Shown piece by piece: positions 23,943-38,011 of a DNA stretch of 38,011 nucleotides. Every line of letters begins with the position of its first letter. The stretch's first letter is position 1. Position numbers and translations under genes: made by a program. Under the pieces are notes generated by a model that did not search any database, had not been told where the DNA came from, and was given only the letters and a program-made list of their open reading frames with translations. Source of the stretch: a virus; the IMG/VR virus record IMGVR_UViG_3300037882_001503, positions 1 through 38,011 of that record; one strand, written 5' to 3'.

Positions 23943-24004
23943 TCTGTGGTTGGACATAACTTGGCGGGGCAAAGAGTGGCCGCTCTCCCGCCAAGCACCA
24001 CAGA
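23943..24004 (+). ncRNA. Structured 5' leader of the primase-helicase mRNA
   Basis: Three nested stems: TCTGTGGT (23,943-23,950) with ACCACAGA (23,997-24,004), CTTGGCGGG (23,960-23,968) with CCCGCCAAG (23,987-23,995), and an apical AGAG/CTCT. The outer stem begins at the expected 5' end and finishes 8 bases before the ribosome-site region, so it may protect the mRNA or gate translation. It is not a match to a riboswitch that I can recognise. Confidence 0.6.
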
Positions 24005-24024
24005 ACAACCACAGGAAACACAGT

Positions 24025-26574
24025 ATGACATTTCAGTCCATAGCAGGCGGGTTTGAAGTAAGTGAAGAAGACAAAGCACTACTTTCCACTCAACGGGCTA
24101 TCACTAAAGCCATCAACGACAAATTTATTCAGGTAGGGGCGGTTTTTTTAAAAACTTCGGGTAAAAACCCGATAGACGCCGACTGGTCGAAAAAAGCTTA
24201 CAGGGACGTTGATCTACAAGACTGGATAGACAGCGACACTTTTCGGTACTACAACGTTGGGTTTAACCTACAGCTTGGTTGGTTGGACGTTGACATAGAT
24301 GCCGATGACCCCGAATACAATAAATGCATCATAGCCGCCATGCAATATCTTAGGATAGACACTAGATTTGCGTTTGGTCGCATGTCAGTTGGAACGCCAA
24401 CCCACGTGATGTTACAACTAGGCGAAGAAGAAAGTGCTAATTTTACACAGTTGACTAAATTTGAACCAAAACAATTTGTTATGGGCGGAAAACGATTTCA
24501 CACACAATTGCGATCATTCCCTACTAACTTACCTGCCGCTAACTTAGCTAAATCTGCCAAGCAAACAGTAATGCCTGGAAGCATCTATAGCCACAAGAAA
24601 AAAGCAGGAACTTATGATATATCTGTTTGGTACGCTAATGGGTCACACGCACGAAACGTTACCCAAATCGCATCAACTACCCCGCGACGTGTGAATTTTA
24701 ACGAAATACTAAGAGCCATAACTTTCGCTACTCTACTATATTGTGTAAGAAACCATTGGGTAGAGGGTTCAAGACAATCTGTTGCACAGGTTGTTACCGG
24801 CTGGCTGGCTCGCGTGGTGGCCGATAGCGCCGCTATAAATAACCACGAGTCTATTTCAGCCGACGTTTTTTGTCCGGTCGATAGCGACGACATTGCGGAG
24901 GCTTTAATTTCGTTCATTTGTGAAAGTCTCAACGACGAAGAGAAGCATATGCGTATACGCGCTTATAACGACGCGCGTGACAAGTTGGACCGAAACCCCG
25001 ATGCGAAAGTTCCCGGATGGCCCACTATCGAAAACACATTCGGCGGTGAGACCAGTATAGCCCTTCGCTCTGTGTTTATGCCGGGGTCTGATGTTTCTCA
25101 ACTTACCAAGATGTCAGAACGGTACGTGTACGATGAAGCTGACAACAAATACATCGATAGGAACAGATTTTTTACCGGCTCAAATTTCTGTCACGAAGGG
25201 CAAGAGTTAGAACGCAGGCACAAGGGCGACGTTGTTCGTATCGGCGGCAAGCCCAAAGAAGCCTTCAAAGTGTTTGAGTCATCAGATATGAGGAAGCGCG
25301 TCGGCGCTCGCGATCTGTACCCGAACATGACTGCGGGCAGTATATTTAGGGTGTCGTCTTTGGGTGAAATTTTGTCGGATGACGACGATAGAGATAATAC
25401 GGCGTTGCCGGTTTTTAACACGTGGCGGGGTTGGCCTGTTGGCGTACCCGATTTAGTGGACGAAGCGCTACTAAAGGATTTGGTGGCTCGATTAGACCAA
25501 GTTTTATCTTATTTAACTAGGGACAACCAACACCAAATCGATTGGGTAAAAAAATGGCTGGCGTGGACTTTTCAAAACCCTGCCGACAAGCAACAAATAT
25601 CTTGGGTTGTTGTAGGAGAGCAGGGTATCGGTAAATCTTGGATAGGCAACATATTCATGCGATCTTTGATGGGCGGCCTTTGGGGTAGCGCTTCGCCGAA
25701 AGTGCTTGAAGGCGATTTCAACGTAGGTCCCTTCAAAGACAAAATGTTCGTGTTTATCGACGAAGCAAAGTTTCATTCAGAGGCGGGCACAGACGAAATC
25801 AAAAAACTGATCAGGGGTGTAGATGTTCCAGGAATGGAGAAATTTCAAGAAGCGCGAAATTACCGACTGTTTTCCCGCATTATGTTTGCATCAAACCGCC
25901 TTGACATGGGGATAGGACAAGCGAACGTTCGGGACAGGGCGCTTTTTTACACCCGCGCGTATGATAGGGAGTACACACGCCGGACTGAACACGAATTTAG
26001 GGCGTGGGCGGAAACCCTAAAGCCGTTTTTCGCTGAGTTTACTGATTTGATGTCGAACAGAAACGTCAAAGAGCATTTTATGTATTACTTTTTGAGTTTA
26101 CCTACGGACAAGTTCGATGTGGAAAGTATAAAATACTCATCAAGCTCTGACAGTTCTATAGTGTTGTCCAATATGTCTTGGGCTAGACGCATAGCTAAAC
26201 ACATAGTCGAAGACGGACGCATTTTAGAGGACTTAGACATCACTTATCCATTTACCATGACCGACCTAAACAAGCGCGTTGGCGAAGTAGCGCTAGAAAT
26301 GGGTATGCGTAATGTTCAGGCGGCGCGGGTTCACGCAGAGTTTGACGCTGCGGGCATATTGGAGACTGTTATAATCGGCGGTATGCGAAAAATGCGTGTA
26401 ACTCACAAGTTGGGTGAACTTGTTCAACTGTTCGGCGCTGCTATATCGGTTGAGTTAGAGCAGCGTTACATTTTTGACGCATCGAAAGACTTTGGTTTAA
26501 ACCTCAACGACGGTAAAGAGCGCACACCTTGGCGCGGTGGTAAACTGGGCGTTGTTCAGTCCGGCAAATTTTGA
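24025..26574 (+). CDS. PrimPol-type primase fused to D5/DUF5906-like helicase
   Basis: 849 aa from the ATG at 24,025 behind CCACAGGAAACACAGT; a longer frame would start within the leader hairpin. Residues about 80-95 (GFNLQLGWLDVDIDADDPE) carry the Asp-x-Asp-x-Asp metal site of bifunctional primase-polymerase domains. Residues about 530-538 (GEQGIGKSW) are Walker A and 573-580 (MFVFIDEA) Walker B; FASNR and a following Arg-rich stretch act as sensor motifs. The two-domain plan matches NrS-1-like primase-helicases. It would unwind and prime at the origin. Synthesis of the bulk DNA is probably left to the family A polymerase. It has its own promoter and leader. Confidence 0.85.
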   Translation: MTFQSIAGGFEVSEEDKALLSTQRAITKAINDKFIQVGAVFLKTSGKNPIDADWSKKAYRDVDLQDWIDSDTFRYYNVGFNLQLGWLDVDIDADDPEYNKCIIAAMQYLRIDTRFAFGRMSVGTPTHVMLQLGEEESANFTQLTKFEPKQFVMGGKRFHTQLRSFPTNLPAANLAKSAKQTVMPGSIYSHKKKAGTYDISVWYANGSHARNVTQIASTTPRRVNFNEILRAITFATLLYCVRNHWVEGSRQSVAQVVTGWLARVVADSAAINNHESISADVFCPVDSDDIAEALISFICESLNDEEKHMRIRAYNDARDKLDRNPDAKVPGWPTIENTFGGETSIALRSVFMPGSDVSQLTKMSERYVYDEADNKYIDRNRFFTGSNFCHEGQELERRHKGDVVRIGGKPKEAFKVFESSDMRKRVGARDLYPNMTAGSIFRVSSLGEILSDDDDRDNTALPVFNTWRGWPVGVPDLVDEALLKDLVARLDQVLSYLTRDNQHQIDWVKKWLAWTFQNPADKQQISWVVVGEQGIGKSWIGNIFMRSLMGGLWGSASPKVLEGDFNVGPFKDKMFVFIDEAKFHSEAGTDEIKKLIRGVDVPGMEKFQEARNYRLFSRIMFASNRLDMGIGQANVRDRALFYTRAYDREYTRRTEHEFRAWAETLKPFFAEFTDLMSNRNVKEHFMYYFLSLPTDKFDVESIKYSSSSDSSIVLSNMSWARRIAKHIVEDGRILEDLDITYPFTMTDLNKRVGEVALEMGMRNVQAARVHAEFDAAGILETVIIGGMRKMRVTHKLGELVQLFGAAISVELEQRYIFDASKDFGLNLNDGKERTPWRGGKLGVVQSGKF

Positions 26575-28669: not shown

Positions 28670-28963
28670 ATGGGGTTGTTCCAAGAACTTGAGGGCGACT
28701 GCGCTGTTATTATAGTAAAGGGTGTGTATAAACAATGCCCTTTGTACACAAGGAACGGCTATTTGTACGCTAAAACTTCTGGTGGTTTTGTTAAGTTGAT
28801 GTCTGATGCTTCAACCAGCCAACCCTCTGTGCGTGTTGAAACATTGGTGTTGGAGCAGGATTTAAAAGTGGATGGCATGGGTCGCTTGATGGTGGGCACT
28901 GAACGCGGTAAGCTATTAGAAGGCCCACGAAAATCGAAATTGCTGGAGATTGGCAATGATTGA
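28670..28963 (+). CDS. Small conserved protein preceding the polymerase
   Basis: 97 aa, CTAGGAATTAAG before the ATG. Beta-rich: ELEGDCAVIIVKGVYKQCPL, LYAKTSGGFVKLMSDAST, VRVETLVLEQDLKV, then GRLMVGTERGKLLEGPRK. A small protein with this strand pattern commonly precedes phage DNA polymerase genes and often ends in a Lys/Pro/Leu segment. It could be a processivity or replisome accessory, but that is inference from position. The last 8 bases overlap the polymerase gene. Confidence 0.6.
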   Translation: MGLFQELEGDCAVIIVKGVYKQCPLYTRNGYLYAKTSGGFVKLMSDASTSQPSVRVETLVLEQDLKVDGMGRLMVGTERGKLLEGPRKSKLLEIGND

Positions 28964-30764
28964 CCCTGAATTAGCAGTACAAATTGTGCGTGAAAGCAAA
29001 GTCATCGCGTTTGATGTGGAGACTTCTGGCTTAGACGCGGGGTTCGATTTTGTGTGCGGTTACGTCATTACGGACCACTCTTTTTCGATTTACGTTCCTG
29101 TTAGGCACCAATCTGGGGGCAACATTCCTGACGCTTTGGGCTTTGAACTTGCCTTAGCTTCGGCATTTAGGGAAAGATCGCGTCTTAAACTGCGCACGGT
29201 TGGACACAACGTTGGGTTTGATTTAAGGTTTGCTGGTTGGCACGGCGTTATTGTCGATGGTGTTGTAGAAGATACCATGATCAACGAGGCTTTGATAGAC
29301 GATAGAACTACAAGTTACTCTTTATCCGATTGCGCCATAAGACACGGGGTAACGGCTAAAAAAGGCTCCGATTTGTATCTTGCTTTGGCGTCTAAGTTTG
29401 GTGGTGTGCCTGATAAAAACCAAATGAAAAATTTTTGGAAAATGTCGGGCGACGATCCTGTTGTTGTGGACTACGCTGTTGGGGACGGCACCACTACTTT
29501 GGAGCTGTGGGGCAAACAACAACATTTATTAGATGCAGAAGAATTGCGCGTTCCTTGGAAACTGGAGTGCGACTTAATTCCTTACATCGCTCGTATGCAT
29601 TTGAGAGGTCTAAAAATAGACGGTGTTTATGCCTCTTCGGTTGACTTAAACGTCAGTGCGCAAATACAAGAAGCAAAATCCGCTTTTAGCGCGGGGTTTA
29701 ACGTAAGATCGCCGAAAGAAGTAGAGACCTTATACAGGACTAACGGCTATTCGGACGCCGACTTTGCTCGTACAGACACCGGACTGCCGTCTTTTACAGA
29801 AAAATGGTTGGAAACAAACGAAATTGGTGAAGCGATACTTAACGTGCGGCGATTAGAGAAAGCACGTGGGAGTTTTATAGAACCGCTAACAAACACCAAA
29901 AACATATCCGGCAGGGTACACGCTGTGTTAAATCAGTCCAAGTCAGACGACTACGGCGTAGCTGGTGCTAGGTTGTCCTGTTCCGAACCTAACATGCAGG
30001 CATTTCCTAAACGAAACAAAATGGTCGGTAAAATCGTGCGGCGATTGGTCATACCCGATGACGGATTTGTTCTAGAAGAAGCTGATGCGATGCAGCAAGA
30101 GCCGCGATTTTTTACACACTATTCAGAAGAGCCGTCTTTGTTGGAGGGCTACCGCAACGGTACGTTTGACATACACGACCGCGCTTCGGAATTGTTGGGC
30201 TTAGAGAGAGACATCGCTAAACGATTAGGCTTGGGTATGCTTACCATGATGTCGCCTAAAGCGCTTAGCGGCCACATGCGTTGGGATTTGTCTCGCGCTA
30301 AAGCGGCACACGCCGCTTTTTTGACGGACGCTTTTCCCATGATAGGCGCATTTCAACAACAAGTAGTTAACGTTTATCGGTCGCGGGGCTATGTAAAATC
30401 GATATTGGGCAGAAAGGCTCGGATACTCGATAGGCGGTTCGCTTATCAAGGCGTGTCGCGTGTTATACAAAACAGTGGCGGCGATCACATTAAAACTTGT
30501 ATTCTTCGCGCTTGTCAATATGAAGACGCTTTCCCGAATTCCGTTCAAATGCTGATGTCAATTCATGACTCTTTAATATGGCAAAGAGACCCGTCACATT
30601 CCCCCGTTGAGCTAGTTAAATTGTTGGAAAACGTGCCGTACGAACCGCAGTTTAACCTATTGGTTCCTATACCGTTTGAATTGGGTTCGGGCGCCAATTG
30701 GTCTGACGCGTCGTACGGAACAAAGTTAAAAGACAAAAAAGGATGGTCTGATGCGAATTGGTGA
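28956..30764 (+). CDS. Family A DNA polymerase with 3'-5' exonuclease (DpoZ candidate)
   Basis: 602 aa from the ATG at 28,956 (GGAG 9 bases upstream; a TTG two codons earlier is possible). Exonuclease motifs: FDVETSG (residues 18-24), HNVGFD (about 85-90), DYAVGD (about 172-177). Polymerase: motif A EADAMQQEPRFF (about 375-386), O-helix KRLGLGMLTMM (about 424-434), motif C IHDSLIW (about 534-540). Compared with E. coli Pol I, the O-helix retains Arg and Lys but has Leu for Phe762 and Thr for Tyr766, and motif C has HDS where most have HDE. In Z-phages a PolA relative, DpoZ, copies aminoadenine DNA. Location just upstream of purZ supports that role, which is inferred, not measured. Confidence 0.9.
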   Translation: MIDPELAVQIVRESKVIAFDVETSGLDAGFDFVCGYVITDHSFSIYVPVRHQSGGNIPDALGFELALASAFRERSRLKLRTVGHNVGFDLRFAGWHGVIVDGVVEDTMINEALIDDRTTSYSLSDCAIRHGVTAKKGSDLYLALASKFGGVPDKNQMKNFWKMSGDDPVVVDYAVGDGTTTLELWGKQQHLLDAEELRVPWKLECDLIPYIARMHLRGLKIDGVYASSVDLNVSAQIQEAKSAFSAGFNVRSPKEVETLYRTNGYSDADFARTDTGLPSFTEKWLETNEIGEAILNVRRLEKARGSFIEPLTNTKNISGRVHAVLNQSKSDDYGVAGARLSCSEPNMQAFPKRNKMVGKIVRRLVIPDDGFVLEEADAMQQEPRFFTHYSEEPSLLEGYRNGTFDIHDRASELLGLERDIAKRLGLGMLTMMSPKALSGHMRWDLSRAKAAHAAFLTDAFPMIGAFQQQVVNVYRSRGYVKSILGRKARILDRRFAYQGVSRVIQNSGGDHIKTCILRACQYEDAFPNSVQMLMSIHDSLIWQRDPSHSPVELVKLLENVPYEPQFNLLVPIPFELGSGANWSDASYGTKLKDKKGWSDANW

Positions 30765-30951: not shown

Positions 30952-31181
30952 TGGCCGAAATATACACCATGAGCGGCACGAAGCTGGTGATGGCCGCTGA
31001 TTTGCTGCGCGATTTGTCAGGAGACCCCGAAATAAAACACGCGGTCGTCTTAGTAACTTACTTCGACGACACCGTAGAAGTTTACAATAGTAGAGCGTCT
31101 ATGAGCGAAGTTAGTTACATGCTTTCGGTAGCGTCTGCGTACCACCACGATTTGGTCAGGGGGTCTTGGAAAAATGAATGA
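30951..31181 (+). CDS. Hypothetical protein
   Basis: 76 aa from the ATG at 30,951 (TAATG with the previous stop); a longer frame from 30,921 has no site. Short alpha/beta protein: LVMAADLLRDLSGDPEIKHA, then VVLVTYFDDTVEVYNSRASM and a helix with a His-rich SAYHHDLVRGS. No motif recognised. It overlaps the VRR-NUC gene by 8 bases, so the four small frames from 30,751 to 31,909 form one coupled string. Confidence 0.62.
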   Translation: MAEIYTMSGTKLVMAADLLRDLSGDPEIKHAVVLVTYFDDTVEVYNSRASMSEVSYMLSVASAYHHDLVRGSWKNE

Positions 31182-31554
31182 GGCGGACGTTAAGCGAAAA
31201 ATAGTCGATGACGTCCGCGCTAACAAGGGATACGCGCGACGTATTGAGGACCAATTTTCGGTGGGGTTCCCCGATATGATCATAATGCTTCCTAAGATAC
31301 CTGTTTTATTCGCGGAGATTAAGATGGTGCGCGGCTTTAGCTTTAGTCCGTCACCTAGGCAACACGTCGAGCTTAGTCGAATGCTTATAACAAGTTCTGC
31401 GTTGCCGGTTTTAATCGGCCACAAAGATAAAGTGTATTTTATACACGGGTTAACTCCGTCTTTAAAATCGATACACATAGATAATTGTGTACAGACGCAA
31501 CCTAACGAAACATTCACAGAAACACTAAAAAGGTGGTACAATGTCCAACGATAG
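31174..31554 (+). CDS. VRR-NUC/Holliday-junction-resolvase-like nuclease
   Basis: 126 aa, within the normal range of stand-alone phage VRR-NUC proteins. The nuclease signature is clear: RIEDQFSVGFPDMIIML supplies Gly-x-Pro-Asp, followed by VLFAEIKMVRG with the Glu-x-Lys, then FSPSPRQHVELSRMLITSSA, typical of the family. Such phage enzymes act on branched or host DNA. In a Z phage it might resolve replication forks or help degrade adenine-containing host DNA, but that is speculation. It overlaps the DUF6378-type gene by 14 bases and forms part of the nucleotide operon. Confidence 0.82.
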   Translation: MNEADVKRKIVDDVRANKGYARRIEDQFSVGFPDMIIMLPKIPVLFAEIKMVRGFSFSPSPRQHVELSRMLITSSALPVLIGHKDKVYFIHGLTPSLKSIHIDNCVQTQPNETFTETLKRWYNVQR

Positions 31555-31909
31555 AAAAGACGCGGCCAATTTGATGGCTGAAGCTATTGAAACCATAACT
31601 AACAAAAGGCCCGGTGTTCACGGCAGCGCCGAGGATAGTTTTAGAATGATTGCCGAACTTTGGACTACATATCTACGGCATACCCGTTTAGTAAGATCGC
31701 ACGATCAGTTGTTGCCCGAAGACATAGCGCAAATGATGTCCATTCTTAAAAAGTGCAGAGCAGTCTATGGAGACCCATCAAACGCGGACAATTTCGTGGA
31801 TGATTTGGGGTACACAGCACTCGCCGGTATGATGCAATTGCCGACCGGCGTGTTGGGGGTTCCGACGCCGACTAACACTCGCTTCGAACCGAAAGGGGCG
31901 AAAAAATGA
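31541..31909 (+). CDS. DUF6378-type protein adjacent to purZ
   Basis: 122 aa. Family pattern: an N-terminal helix with R-P-G-V-HG, SFRMIAELWTTYLRH, then LLPEDIAQMMSILKKCRAVY, followed by DNFVDDLGYTALAGMMQL. This D-[IV]-A-x-M-M ... DN-x-[VI]-D-x-x-GY string is that of the phage DUF6378 family, common in phages and with no biochemical function I know of. The last 4 bases overlap purZ (ATGATG), so it is translationally coupled to the Z pathway and may be an accessory of it. Confidence 0.8.
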   Translation: MSNDRKDAANLMAEAIETITNKRPGVHGSAEDSFRMIAELWTTYLRHTRLVRSHDQLLPEDIAQMMSILKKCRAVYGDPSNADNFVDDLGYTALAGMMQLPTGVLGVPTPTNTRFEPKGAKK

Positions 31910-32994
31910 TGGACAATTTGTTCGCGGACAAAGGTGTGCATGTCGTTGTTGATGGGCAGTTTGGTTCAACGGGCAAAGGCGCACTTTGTGCGTGGTTAGC
32001 TGCGGAAGCCATTAAACAAGGCGTCAAGTTCGATGCGGTGGTATCCAACGCCGGACCAAATTCCGGCCACACTTTTTACCATAACGGTGAAAAGCACGTC
32101 TTAAAACAACTTCCTACGTTTGCCGTGGCGTCTCATTTGATGGGGGTTACTGTACCCGTGGTTCTAAGTTCCGGCGCTATAATAAACTTAGACACGCTTG
32201 AAACCGAGCTTAAAAAATACCCCGACATTCCAGTAGCCATAAGCGCCACAGCCGCGTTAATATCGCGCGAGGACGTTGACAGTGAGCATTCCGGCACTGT
32301 AGCAGCCGTGGCTGGTACCCGATCAGGCACAGGCGCTGCGCTGGCGCGGAAGGTGCTGCGCGACCGTGAAGCAGTTATTAAACACTCTGATCGGGTTAGG
32401 GATTTGGTCAAGAACAATGACGTTACTGTTTCAGACATGGGAGGCTACCCGACCCCTCAGAGTCCTTTCGGTAGCCGAACCTTTGTGGAAGTTAGTCAGG
32501 GGTTTTCGTTGGGTATCAACCAACGGTTCTACCCCAAGGTGACCAGCAGAGAATGCACGGTGTCTCAAGCATTGGCTGACGCTGGATTGCCACCTAGAAG
32601 CGTGTCGAAAACTTACATGACGCTGCGCACATTTCCAATTCGAGTCGGCAATGTGGATGGGCACGATAGTGGGGGCTGGTACTACGACCAAGAGGAGATT
32701 TCGTGGTCAGATATAGGTGTCGCGCCCGAACTTACTACGGTGACACAAAGAGAGCGCAGAATAGCTACGTTCTCCGATTTTCAGTTGCGGTTAGCTTTGC
32801 TTGCAAACGACCCTGATTGGGTTTTCGTCAATTTTCTAAACTATTTGGAAAATGACTCAACACGATCGCAGTTTTTAACACGGATTAGAGGAACGATAAA
32901 AAATGACCGAAAAGAAATCGGAATTATTGAAGGGTACGGACCCAGCAGCGACGACATTAGAACTTCCTCAATCGACTGTCATATTTCTACCTAA
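31906..32994 (+). CDS. purZ: PurZ, phage aminoadenine synthesis enzyme (PurA homologue)
   Basis: 362 aa, shorter than host PurA (about 430), as expected for PurZ. The P-loop is VVVDGQFGSTGKG (residues 13-25): Ser21 replaces the catalytic Asp that host adenylosuccinate synthetase has in GDEGKG, the recognised PurZ change allowing dGMP use. The IMP-loop equivalent NAGPNSGHTF retains His55. Later motifs include GTRSGTGAALARKVLR, SQGFSLGINQRFYP, then TVSQALADAGLP and RTFPIRVGN, all in PurA order. In characterised phages the enzyme ligates Asp to dGMP with ATP or dATP as donor, and host PurB finishes dZMP. It overlaps mazZ by 92 bases. Confidence 0.93.
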   Translation: MMDNLFADKGVHVVVDGQFGSTGKGALCAWLAAEAIKQGVKFDAVVSNAGPNSGHTFYHNGEKHVLKQLPTFAVASHLMGVTVPVVLSSGAIINLDTLETELKKYPDIPVAISATAALISREDVDSEHSGTVAAVAGTRSGTGAALARKVLRDREAVIKHSDRVRDLVKNNDVTVSDMGGYPTPQSPFGSRTFVEVSQGFSLGINQRFYPKVTSRECTVSQALADAGLPPRSVSKTYMTLRTFPIRVGNVDGHDSGGWYYDQEEISWSDIGVAPELTTVTQRERRIATFSDFQLRLALLANDPDWVFVNFLNYLENDSTRSQFLTRIRGTIKNDRKEIGIIEGYGPSSDDIRTSSIDCHIST

Positions 32995-33247
32995 AGAAGT
33001 TAAACTTTACAAACACGACATTCGCCGTTTCGTGGATGCGATGGTGTATAAGTTAAAGATACACCACAAAAAGGGTCGATGGGAGGATTTAGATTTGAAC
33101 AATGCTTTAATTGCGTTAGAGGCGGAAGTGCAGGAGTTACGAGCAGCCATAGCTTTAGGTAATTCCGTAGAAATTCTAACGGAGGCGGCTGACGTCGCTA
33201 ATTTTGCCATGATTATAGCAGCCATTTCAACGGAGCGCGGACAATGA
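32903..33247 (+). CDS. mazZ: MazZ, MazG-like (d)GTP pyrophosphohydrolase
   Basis: 114 aa from the ATG at 32,903, behind GAGGAACG and inside the end of purZ. MazG-type acidic helices: KHDIRRFVDAMVYKLKIHH, KKGRWEDLDL, then ALEAEVQELR (Glu73, 75, 78) and EAADVANFAMII (Glu94, Asp97, Asn100), forming the Mg-binding four-helix site. In Z-phages MazZ converts dGTP to dGMP, the PurZ substrate. Identification rests on the MazG motifs plus its place between purZ and datZ. The first 30 residues are an extra, uncharacterised N-terminus. Stop overlaps the datZ start (ATGA). Confidence 0.88.
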   Translation: MTEKKSELLKGTDPAATTLELPQSTVIFLPKEVKLYKHDIRRFVDAMVYKLKIHHKKGRWEDLDLNNALIALEAEVQELRAAIALGNSVEILTEAADVANFAMIIAAISTERGQ

Positions 33248-33804
33248 ACACTAGGATTTTCAATGAACTTGACCACCGATTGTCGGTGGTAAAGCGTTGG
33301 GCTATACTACATACTGTTCAAACGCAGTCCGTAGCTGAACATATATTTAACGTTGAGCGTATATTGTACCAAATAGCCGACGCGTGGTTTTGTTTAGACG
33401 ATACGGCCACAGCCAAACTGTTAAAAGCGGCGCATTTCCATGAAGAAGAAGAAGCGCTGTCGGGCGATTTGCCGAGCATGGTAAAGCCCTATTTCGATAC
33501 GTCTGAATTTATACAACACCATTCTGATTCATTGACGTACTCAAATGTTTTGTCGGATTTGGGTTATCTAGGAACTATCCTTAAGTTGGCGGACAAAATG
33601 GAGGGTTACCGGTTTTTGTGTATGGAAGAGCGTTTGGGTAATCAGTACATAAAGAACCACCTAGACGACGAATACGAGATTATAGTAAAGTTTGCTGTTG
33701 TGTTTTCGCCCGCGGTTCTCGAAGCGTTGGAGGAATGGATGGTAAAACAACGAAAAGTAGAATCGACCCGATTTAACCGCGCGTCTAATGGGAAAATACG
33801 ATGA
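33244..33804 (+). CDS. datZ: DatZ, HD-domain dATP triphosphohydrolase
   Basis: 186 aa, YfbR/DatZ-like HD fold. Conserved positions: VAEH (His33), AAHFHEEEEALSGDLPS (His66, Glu70, Asp75) and LKLADKMEG (Asp117). The metal-ligand Asp of the HD pair appears as Glu67 (HE instead of HD), a notable departure. In known Z-phages DatZ removes dATP so that dZTP is incorporated. The gene order purZ-mazZ-datZ and the GDLP motif leave little doubt on family. Whether the HE form is fully active is unknown. Start and stop overlap the neighbours by 4 bases each. Confidence 0.88.
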   Translation: MNTRIFNELDHRLSVVKRWAILHTVQTQSVAEHIFNVERILYQIADAWFCLDDTATAKLLKAAHFHEEEEALSGDLPSMVKPYFDTSEFIQHHSDSLTYSNVLSDLGYLGTILKLADKMEGYRFLCMEERLGNQYIKNHLDDEYEIIVKFAVVFSPAVLEALEEWMVKQRKVESTRFNRASNGKIR

Positions 33805-35192
33805 AACCGATGAAAGTGCAACTTGCTGCGTTGTCCCGCAGCAACGGAGCTGCGGGATTTGCATACTTCATGGAAATGGGTTTAGGTAAGACGCTAACGG
33901 CGGGGTTAGATTTGATCGAACGGGTAGCAGAGGGCAACGCCACCCGTTCGATCGTGGTTTGTCCCAATTCATTTAAGACCGGCTGGGTTGACGATTTTAT
34001 AAAACACGATTTATCCGTAAATCAATTTGTGTATAACAGCGACAGCAATTCGCATGAACAATGGCTACGTCAGCCCACAAACCAAGTTCGGCAGTTGATA
34101 TTAAACTACGAGGCCATTCGAACTGAAAAAACGCAGCGGTTTTTACAGGAGTATATGCAAGGGCACAAGGTGTTTGGAATATTTGACGAAAGTATACAAT
34201 TAAAAACCCACGACAGTCTGCAAACCAAAGCTGCTATAAATGTCGCCAAAGACTTGGCATACTCTCGTATTCTTTCCGGCAAGCCGATAACGCAGGGTCC
34301 GCACGATTTGTGGGGGCAGTTTCGAGTCATCAAGCAGTTTAATGGCCGCAACTACTTTGCGTTTAAAACCGCGTTTTGTAAAATGGGGGGTTTTAAAATG
34401 AAACAAGTTTTAGGTGCTCAAAATGAAGACATCTTATCCGAGCTGATCGACCCTTACACGTTTCGCGCCACCAAAGCCGAGTGGACAGATTTACCCCCAA
34501 AAATATTCCACATTCGTGATTATGTTCTAACCCCCGCTATGAAGAGTATGTACAAACAAATGGCTGATGAGTTTGTCTTGTGGCTACAAAACGGCGATTT
34601 AGTAACTGTGGACGCAGCCATAACTAAGTATATAAAGTTAGCCCAAATTCAATGTGGGTGGGTTTATAAAGAAGATAAATCTATAGTACAGCTTGTAGAG
34701 GATAAAGACAACCCCCGATTAAATCTGTTGTGCGAAGTGTTAAATAACGAGGTAATAGGCAAGTCTTGTGTGGTTTATCACCACAAACCAGTATTTGAAC
34801 AATTAACGCGGCGTTTAGTTAACGAAAATCCGGCGTGGATTAAAGGCGGCATGACACAAGACGAAATAGCTGAACAAAAGCGCAAATTTAACGAGGACCC
34901 CTCGTGTCGCGTTATATTGTTGCAGGATAACGCGTCAAAATACGGCCACACTTTGTTAGGCGACCAGAATAACGTGATCAATGCTTGCAGCACAATGATT
35001 TTCTACGAGAACAACTACTCTTTAGATACCCGAAGTCAAATAGAAGACAGGTCACACAGACACGGCCAACTACAGTCTTCCGTCAACTACATCGATTTAA
35101 TAGGTACACCTATAGACCGAGATTGCATAAAAGCTTTGCAGAGGAAAGAGTCCGTGTTTCAAGCGGTGTTCGCCGGAATGTCTAGTCACTAA
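33801..35192 (+). CDS. SNF2-like superfamily 2 helicase
   Basis: 463 aa. Walker A FMEMGLGKTLTA (about residues 28-39), motif Ia VVCPNSFKTGW, Walker B VFGIFDES (DES in place of DEAH), motif III LSGKPITQGPHDLW, and motif VI TRSQIEDRSHRHGQ, the usual QxxDRxHRxGQ of SNF2 helicases. The second lobe includes SCVVYHHKPVFEQL and a long insert-free core. Phage SNF2-like enzymes help replication or remodel DNA-bound proteins. Coupled to datZ by ATGA, it may act during replication of Z-DNA, though this is association only. Its stop overlaps the convergent ejection gene by 11 bases. Confidence 0.88.
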   Translation: MKPMKVQLAALSRSNGAAGFAYFMEMGLGKTLTAGLDLIERVAEGNATRSIVVCPNSFKTGWVDDFIKHDLSVNQFVYNSDSNSHEQWLRQPTNQVRQLILNYEAIRTEKTQRFLQEYMQGHKVFGIFDESIQLKTHDSLQTKAAINVAKDLAYSRILSGKPITQGPHDLWGQFRVIKQFNGRNYFAFKTAFCKMGGFKMKQVLGAQNEDILSELIDPYTFRATKAEWTDLPPKIFHIRDYVLTPAMKSMYKQMADEFVLWLQNGDLVTVDAAITKYIKLAQIQCGWVYKEDKSIVQLVEDKDNPRLNLLCEVLNNEVIGKSCVVYHHKPVFEQLTRRLVNENPAWIKGGMTQDEIAEQKRKFNEDPSCRVILLQDNASKYGHTLLGDQNNVINACSTMIFYENNYSLDTRSQIEDRSHRHGQLQSSVNYIDLIGTPIDRDCIKALQRKESVFQAVFAGMSSH

Positions 35193-36723: not shown

Positions 36724-38011
36724 TTATTCCTTTGAGTAAAGTTTAATTATGTCGTCAACTGACATGTTAGTTGACGAGCTGCTTGGTTTCTGCATCAAAC
36801 CATCAGCTTCTTCTTGCGATTTGATGCCCGTGGACACAATAGCTGAGTAAATTCGCTTTACCCTGTCAAGGTTATAAACTACCTGATCTTTGCTTTGTGC
36901 TAGTTCCAAATTACCTATAACAGCTTGAAGTAGCTTGTTTTCAAAATCAGACACAGGTCCAAGAGCTGCGCCGGTAGGTGAGGCAGCTCTCATCGCTTGT
37001 AGCTTATCGAAGCCTACATTAGCTTTGACAGTTTCCACTAGGGCTTTTGCGTTATACGCTGGTGTTCCAGGGATGATTTGTGAGGCTGCCGCTGGAACAC
37101 CGGTCGCTGAAAACAATCCCGTATTCTTTTTGTCGTTAATTATGTCGAGAACACGGTCGATGTCTTCCGTTACGATGTCTGCTGTGGCGTCACTGGCCTT
37201 TTTAGAGCCTTCAATTTTATTTGCCGCTTCTTCGTTAGCGATAAACACGGTTCCGCCTTGAACAGGCAGTGCGATAGGTACTCCTCTTTCGTCTAACACT
37301 ATCGACCCATCCGGCGCTCTTTTCCAAGCAGTGTCTTTGGGTGGGTCGCCGTAGTCTGTGCCGGAAGGTCCTACATTTACCTGCGACGCACCCGCGCGTT
37401 TTTGATCAAGCAGCCATTGTTCAAGCGGTATGCGTTTTTCCGCAGAGACGCCGCGCATTGCGGCGTTGTAGAGCTGCTCTTGCTCCGTGTTGCCCGTACC
37501 TGCGATATTGTTATTACCCACAGGCGATTTATCGTCTTTGTAAACTGCTATTTTACCGCCTGTTACAGGGTCGTCTACCAGTTCTATTTCCCGTTTTTTA
37601 GCCACACCAAAGGGTTGACTAATTTGTCCGGTAGTTTTGTCGACAATGACATGAGTGCCGTCTTCGTTCGACACTATTTCGTTGTTTGGTTTTTCCGCTT
37701 CCGCTATGACCTGATCCAGTTTACCTGCATCGAAAAGGTAGTTTGCGGTTTCTGCGCTAAGGCCGTACTTGGCTGCTATGGCTGGAATACCTGCTCTTTC
37801 AGCCGCTTTTTGTTGCAGAGCGTTTTGGCTTTGCTTAAACGCCATAATGTTGTTTATCATAACATTTGGGTCGGCGTTGTTGTCAGAACTAAACGCCTGC
37901 ATTATACCTGCTCTGTTTTGTTCTTGTGCTAATGACGCACCTATCATTCCTATACCACGATCGATGGATCGGTTTTTTTCTTGACGCTCCATCATTTTCA
38001 TGTACAAATCC
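36724..38011 (-). CDS. Internal virion/ejection protein, C-terminal part (5' end outside window)
   Basis: An open frame of at least 428 codons reaching the window edge at 38,010 without a supported start; a TTG at 38,007 has no ribosome site. The sequence is helical and charged (LYMKMMERQEKNRSIDRGIG, then MIGASLAQEQNRAGIMQAFS), with a middle containing VIVDKTTGQISQP and a C-terminal helical ARAASPTG...NLELAQSKDQVVYNLDRVKR. It lacks an N-terminus, and the gene at 1-156 lacks a C-terminus. Both are leftward and the frames can be joined across the edge, so they are probably one protein of about 480 residues. Confidence 0.75.
   Translation of the reverse strand, partial: DLYMKMMERQEKNRSIDRGIGMIGASLAQEQNRAGIMQAFSSDNNADPNVMINNIMAFKQSQNALQQKAAERAGIPAIAAKYGLSAETANYLFDAGKLDQVIAEAEKPNNEIVSNEDGTHVIVDKTTGQISQPFGVAKKREIELVDDPVTGGKIAVYKDDKSPVGNNNIAGTGNTEQEQLYNAAMRGVSAEKRIPLEQWLLDQKRAGASQVNVGPSGTDYGDPPKDTAWKRAPDGSIVLDERGVPIALPVQGGTVFIANEEAANKIEGSKKASDATADIVTEDIDRVLDIINDKKNTGLFSATGVPAAASQIIPGTPAYNAKALVETVKANVGFDKLQAMRAASPTGAALGPVSDFENKLLQAVIGNLELAQSKDQVVYNLDRVKRIYSAIVSTGIKSQEEADGLMQKPSSSSTNMSVDDIIKLYSKE

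Follow-up and report, generated by a model that had tools for sequence, protein, structure and literature searches.

Does the phage behind this virus record, in which genes related to purA, mazG and yfbR lie side by side, carry 2-aminoadenine (Z) in place of adenine in its DNA? We consider this likely, given an intact three-gene operon, a PurZ with Ser21 that falls inside the phage PurZ proteins and a MazZ of the MazZ-2 type in what is probably the genome of a lytic phage resembling podoviruses. The window, by which we mean the whole record of 38,011 bases, carries portal, scaffold, terminase and tail genes on the minus strand in its left part and, in its right part, replication genes on the plus strand followed again by head-region genes on the minus strand. 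A tRNA search of the 38,011-base record found none, no integrase was present among the ORFs scanned against Pfam and PHROG profiles, and a near-identity DNA search of phage records returned no match. Its gene order is that of Ochrobactrum phage vB_OspP_OH (hereafter OH; Wolominvirus, NC_070933), a virulent podovirus of 41.2 kb, so the record probably represents most of a lytic podovirus-like genome and is probably short of complete by a few kb. The order is also compatible with a rotated OH genome, and the final minus-strand ORF runs into the record end (terminal stretches considered: 1–200 and 36724–38011). The features that bear on the question are the following:

23950–26574, plus strand: primase/helicase, 874 aa, syntenic with an OH gene annotated as DNA primase-polymerase.
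28950–30764 (first ATG 28956), plus strand: family A DNA polymerase with intact 3′-5′ exonuclease residues and Thr432 at 30243–30245.
31174–31554, plus strand: nuclease-like gene that matches a PHROG 'endonuclease' weakly and is the syntenic counterpart of OH gp30.
31541–31909, plus strand: DUF6378 gene, labeled 'phosphofructokinase' in PHROGs; it immediately precedes purZ in this genome and in that of OH.
31906–32994, plus strand: purZ, predicted 2-amino-adenylosuccinate synthetase, 362 aa, with Ser21 at 31966–31968 and the donor pocket N309-F310-x-N312 (ATP/dATP type).
32903–33247, plus strand: mazZ, predicted MazZ-2 type nucleotide pyrophosphohydrolase, 114 aa from the first ATG, with E75-x2-E78 ... 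E94-x2-D97.
33244–33804, plus strand: datZ-like gene for a YfbR/HD-superfamily phosphohydrolase, 186 aa, with the metal-A diad His66-Glu67 (33439–33444), not His-Asp.
33801–35192, plus strand: SNF2-type helicase, the operon gene after the datZ-like gene.

Within the replication block, the polymerase, two small genes, the nuclease-like gene, the DUF6378 gene, purZ, mazZ, the datZ-like gene and the SNF2 helicase form a single operon. Overlaps of 4 nt join the DUF6378 gene to purZ, mazZ to the datZ-like gene and the latter to the helicase gene; counted from the first ATG of mazZ, its overlap with purZ is 92 nt, with TTG 32927 as a possible later start. The complete purZ-mazZ-datZ cassette of overlapping genes that a preliminary description placed at 31906–33804 is borne out, as three intact ORFs free of internal stops, in one operon, with homology far beyond chance. 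The presence and order of the genes, their homology and their catalytic residues, except the Asp of the HD diad, can be seen directly. None of purZ, mazZ, datZ and polA looks decayed, since pN lies well below pS in each when compared with OH, at which distance synonymous sites are near saturation. OH shares the order PolA, nuclease, DUF6378, purZ, mazZ, datZ and SNF2 helicase, at 57% (PurZ), 59% (MazZ), 60% (PolA) and 47% (DatZ) identity, although an extra small gene that is absent here separates its mazZ and datZ; many IMG/VR contigs repeat this order, either complete or lacking datZ. A protein labeled phosphofructokinase, the label that PHROGs give to the DUF6378 gene, is also found near purZ in Burkholderia phage Bm1.

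The PurZ protein matches the PHROG '2-aminooxy adenylosuccinate synthetase' (E = 9.9e-56) as well as the PurZ of phiVC8 (6fm1, 1e-46) and of S-2L (7odx, 1.1e-38) ahead of archaeal PurA (2.8e-20). Its P-loop, GQFGSTGKG, has Ser21 where PurA has the catalytic Asp, just as had been described, and Ser occupies this column (Asp13 of PurA) in all 120 aligned sequences that cover it, the scan patterns used to collect these relatives not having included the column. The outcome named beforehand as counting against a Z cassette, a PurZ grouping within PurA with a wild-type catalytic residue, did not materialize: besides the Asp-to-Ser exchange, the tree places the protein inside phage PurZ and apart from both PurZ0 and PurA, the E. 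coli PurA branch being very long. The PurZ0 phages (Arthrobacter phage Wayne, Gordonia phage Ghobes) also have a PurA-like synthetase with a P-loop Ser, but theirs is a GSEAKG loop outside the PurZ clade, and they use dutZ/dmtZ/DUF5664 and DpoZ-1 in place of mazZ/datZ and of the polymerase type found here. The residues known to contact dGMP and ATP in the S-2L and phiVC8 enzymes (PMC8342488) are largely retained, including the TTVT loop. At the adenine of the phosphate donor lies N309-F310-x-N312. Many relatives (e.g., L051, L081, L041) display S/T-H-x-D at the equivalent positions, with the Asp at what we take to be the position of the guanine-recognizing Asp of E. coli PurA, which suggests a GTP-type donor site in these versions.

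MazZ had no Pfam match above the cut-off; it is 59% identical to OH gp33 and can be aligned with MazZ-2 of phiVC8 and of ZP6. MazZ-2 enzymes are reported to have four strictly conserved acidic metal ligands (PMC8342488). Here these are E75, E78, E94 and D97 of an ExxE...ExxD arrangement, in agreement with the MazG-type acidic helices previously noted in this gene product, and they are invariant in 73–74 of the 74 relatives that cover them. S-2L R83 also has a counterpart, R112 in the RG motif at the C-terminus, as judged by aligning the protein with those of phiVC8 and ZP6. By these residues the protein has the published MazZ-2 features and is of the phiVC8-like type. Its model (pLDDT 86.7) is a three-helix structure whose top Foldseek matches are MazG-like at E = 0.09 or worse, and a profile match to AF_0060 (E = 8e-5) was also obtained; the fold evidence thus points weakly to MazG-like enzymes.

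From this inventory we infer each reaction of a Z pathway, and with it Z in the DNA. MazZ-2 would hydrolyze dGTP to dGMP. With ATP or dATP as phosphate donor, PurZ would condense this with aspartate to 2-amino-deoxyadenylosuccinate, from which PurB and kinases of the host would complete the synthesis of dZTP. The DatZ-like protein would remove dATP, and a family A polymerase encoded by the phage, different in class from DpoZ-1 and DpoZ-2, would copy the genome with dZTP. The cassette, the affiliation of PurZ and the MazZ-2 type uphold the earlier proposal that Z replaces A as the best reading; the support is partial, as the diad of the DatZ-like protein is without its Asp, and the polymerase, which decides whether dZTP is used and had been overlooked, belongs to neither described DpoZ group. 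The S-2L Z-cluster has the same order purZ-mazZ-datZ, with homologous PurZ and DatZ, nearly all of whose catalytic residues are kept here; unlike this phage, S-2L has MazZ-1, replication by a PrimPol, no family A polymerase and a DatZ with an intact HD diad. Expression of the S-2L triad in E. coli led to Z in the bacterial DNA (PMC8342488), which favors a Z genome here. Vibrio phage phiVC8 has in common with this phage the ATP-type N-F-x-N pocket of PurZ, MazZ-2, DatZ (DatZ-like here) and a nearby polymerase gene with a 3′-5′ exonuclease.

The exonuclease and catalytic residues of the polymerase are intact. The O-helix tyrosine, otherwise strictly conserved, is Phe in both Z-polymerase clades, DpoZ-1 and DpoZ-2 (PMC8599892); here its position (E. 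coli Tyr766, phiVC8 Phe459) is held by Thr432 and, in the OH polymerase, which likewise lacks the tyrosine, by Ser. Among the published DpoZ-2 features (insertions 2 and 3, Leu455, Phe459 and Gly548; PMC8599892), only the equivalent of Leu455 is present: in contrast to phiVC8, which has insertion 2, Phe459 and Gly548, this polymerase has Thr at 459 and Ser at 548, lacks insertion 2 and is shortened in the region of insertion 3. Neither is it a Wayne-like DpoZ-1, given Thr432 instead of Phe and a clade separate from Wayne and Ghobes. The lineage polymerases form their own clade of about 90 IMG/VR contigs with an SH-aLRT support of 100, and among the relatives sampled, collected by a scan with stretches unrelated to the tyrosine position, 87 have Thr there, 4 have Ser and 1 has Asn. 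Tyr was seen in nine of nine non-Z polymerases sampled, and Phe in the polymerases of phiVC8-like phages, of Ghobes and of a small number of further PurZ-phage contigs. By residues and tree position, the polymerase is a class distinct from both described DpoZ groups; a 2026 study (PMC12884076), whose text does not name Ochrobactrum, recognizes just two groups of Z-phage polymerases. A common origin with DpoZ-2 is possible: the best tree joins both, with a support of only 38. In the nearest polymerase relatives of this phage, L088 (IMGVR_UViG_3300028592_000047) and L075, motif B has Tyr at the expected dNTP-binding arginine, with Ser at the tyrosine position.

With Phe459 missing, a preference for dZTP cannot be read from the sequence, and there is an appreciable chance, though short of even, that the polymerase is as indifferent to Z versus A as the S-2L PrimPol, Thr432 being a neutral lineage trait and the nucleotide pool alone setting the Z content; this is compatible with a Z genome and is a rival to the polymerase step only. 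The linkage to purZ is close: among 70 lineage contigs with at least 2.6 kb past the polymerase, 68 have purZ downstream of it (these counts are of contigs, some near-identical, not of independent events). The two exceptions are a 6.4 kb fragment and L085 (IMGVR_UViG_3300014969_000027), the deepest polymerase relative, which has neither PurZ nor DatZ in 46.5 kb and yet already has Asn at the tyrosine position, so the loss of the tyrosine may predate Z or be independent of it. Against an indifferent polymerase, purZ and mazZ persist in relatives without datZ (see below), where dATP would then seem to be excluded by some other means, and both of the biochemically tested Z-polymerase classes also have an altered O-helix tyrosine (PMC8599892). 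In E. coli Klenow, Y766S opens the active site and lowers fidelity (PMC3121766).

The third gene of the cassette departs most from expectation. A scan with the single DatZ sequence gave no match; alignment-based scans succeeded. The protein matches the PHROG 'dATP triphosphohydrolase' (5.4e-16) and the Pfam YfbR-like family (1.7e-11), and the lineage profile ranks S-2L DatZ (6zpa) first in the PDB (E = 9.1e-20). Its model (pLDDT 92.3) matches OxsA, YfbR and DatZ, pointing to a YfbR-like fold with the closest affinity to DatZ. Published DatZ proteins strictly keep Asp in the HD diad (PMC8065100), and OH DatZ has it too, but the metal-A ligands here are His33, His66, Glu67 and Asp117; the 'HD-type' hydrolase of the preliminary description is in fact a His-Glu protein, and, because the diad Asp is missing, we label it DatZ-like. 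Apart from this Asp67-to-Glu exchange, all metal- and phosphate-binding residues named for S-2L DatZ (PMC8065100) are kept; the protein retains Arg18, Trp19, Ile21, His33, His66, Glu70, Asp75, Lys81, Lys114 and Asp117, among which Arg18, Trp19, Ile21, Lys81 and Lys114 correspond to the substrate contacts R19, W20, I22, K81 and K116 in S-2L numbering. The base-contacting Pro79 of S-2L DatZ is Met, as in OH. The diad Asp is found in 48 of 50 aligned DatZ-like sequences and Glu in two, the second being that of L150 (IMGVR_UViG_3300028030_000021), a distant contig whose protein keeps the remaining ligands; that His-Glu occurs twice, separately and with everything else preserved, points to a functional variant more than to noise. 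The PurZ-like neighbor in L150 is divergent, with the loop GSEGKR and SGG instead of SGH. A literature search found no report of an 'HE motif' in HD phosphohydrolases. On these residues, dATPase activity of the DatZ-like protein is plausible but not assured.

Across the lineage, datZ proves dispensable: of the 55 contigs that have both purZ and mazZ and extend 1.2 kb or more past mazZ, a datZ-like gene is present in 27 and absent from 28, and explaining its distribution on the PurZ tree takes eight changes. Ten datZ-less loci were inspected, and in each of them the SNF2 helicase comes next after mazZ, with at most a small ORF between the two.

datZ-less purZ-mazZ operons: L111, L039, L041, L051, L063, L073, L080, L090, L124 and L156.

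No YfbR-like gene was found in 11 datZ-less records searched whole, ten of them 37–45 kb long (controls positive in six of six), and a lineage-specific DatZ profile agrees with this absence for nine of the 11. A dUTPase-type DutZ was rejected as a substitute (PF00692 in 0 of 16 datZ-less genomes, with working controls); DUF5664 (PF18909) also matched 0 of 16, a count that is uninformative as the controls likewise gave no match. Nor did a link of datZ loss to the PurZ donor site hold up: raw counts of datZ absent versus present are 23/9 for S/T-H-x-D and 7/35 for N-F-x-N, but with kinship considered only three to four independent pairs remain, without consistent direction. The lineage thereby differs from the earlier picture: in each of the ten complete phages known to have both datZ and purZ, mazZ lay between these genes, and the trio was handled as a single co-varying cluster (PMC8342488).

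The dispensability of datZ also means that selection on it may be relaxed, which bears on whether substitution is complete. If the His-Glu protein were weak or inactive, dATP would persist and Z would replace A only partly unless the polymerase discriminates; the rarity of the exchange (2 of 50 sequences), the absence of datZ from about half of the testable relatives and the S-2L triad, which in E. coli put only partial Z into the DNA, and less with an incomplete cluster (PMC8342488), speak for this. We regard it as unlikely, since every other metal and phosphate ligand is intact, Glu is able to coordinate metals, L150 has arrived at His-Glu independently with its other ligands kept, and the gene is under purifying selection (pN 0.33 versus pS 0.89 against OH). 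That the genes serve nucleotide salvage only, with normal adenine in the DNA, is highly improbable: it is the published reading for the nearest relative, OH, whose authors saw an adenylosuccinate synthase, an ATP pyrophosphatase and a 5′-nucleotidase (PMC7139368), and our literature search found no nucleoside data, that is, no base measurement, for that phage, but the catalytic Asp of PurA is replaced by Ser without exception, the affiliation is with PurZ and not PurA, and the linkage with MazZ-2 and the family A polymerase is conserved.

A Z genome is hence the reading that we retain. The kind of cassette is already published from S-2L and phiVC8; new are the extent of a large, little-described lineage, its polymerase variant, the optional datZ and the HE diad. 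We posit, as a hypothesis, that discrimination against A may rest more on the polymerase in this lineage, which would fit the optional datZ. In its full form, for which we would give somewhat less than even chances, this amounts to a third class of Z-using polymerase, with Thr or Ser at the O-helix tyrosine, in a large, mostly uncultivated Z-phage clade, which excludes enough A that datZ became optional, being lost in many members and altered from HD to HE here. The residues by which a polymerase favors Z over A are still being sought (PMC8599892), and these roughly 90 contigs, in which purZ accompanies a polymerase with Thr/Ser at the one O-helix position changed in both tested classes, are a natural test set for them; relatives with and without datZ would show whether the removal of dATP is needed when the polymerase itself selects.
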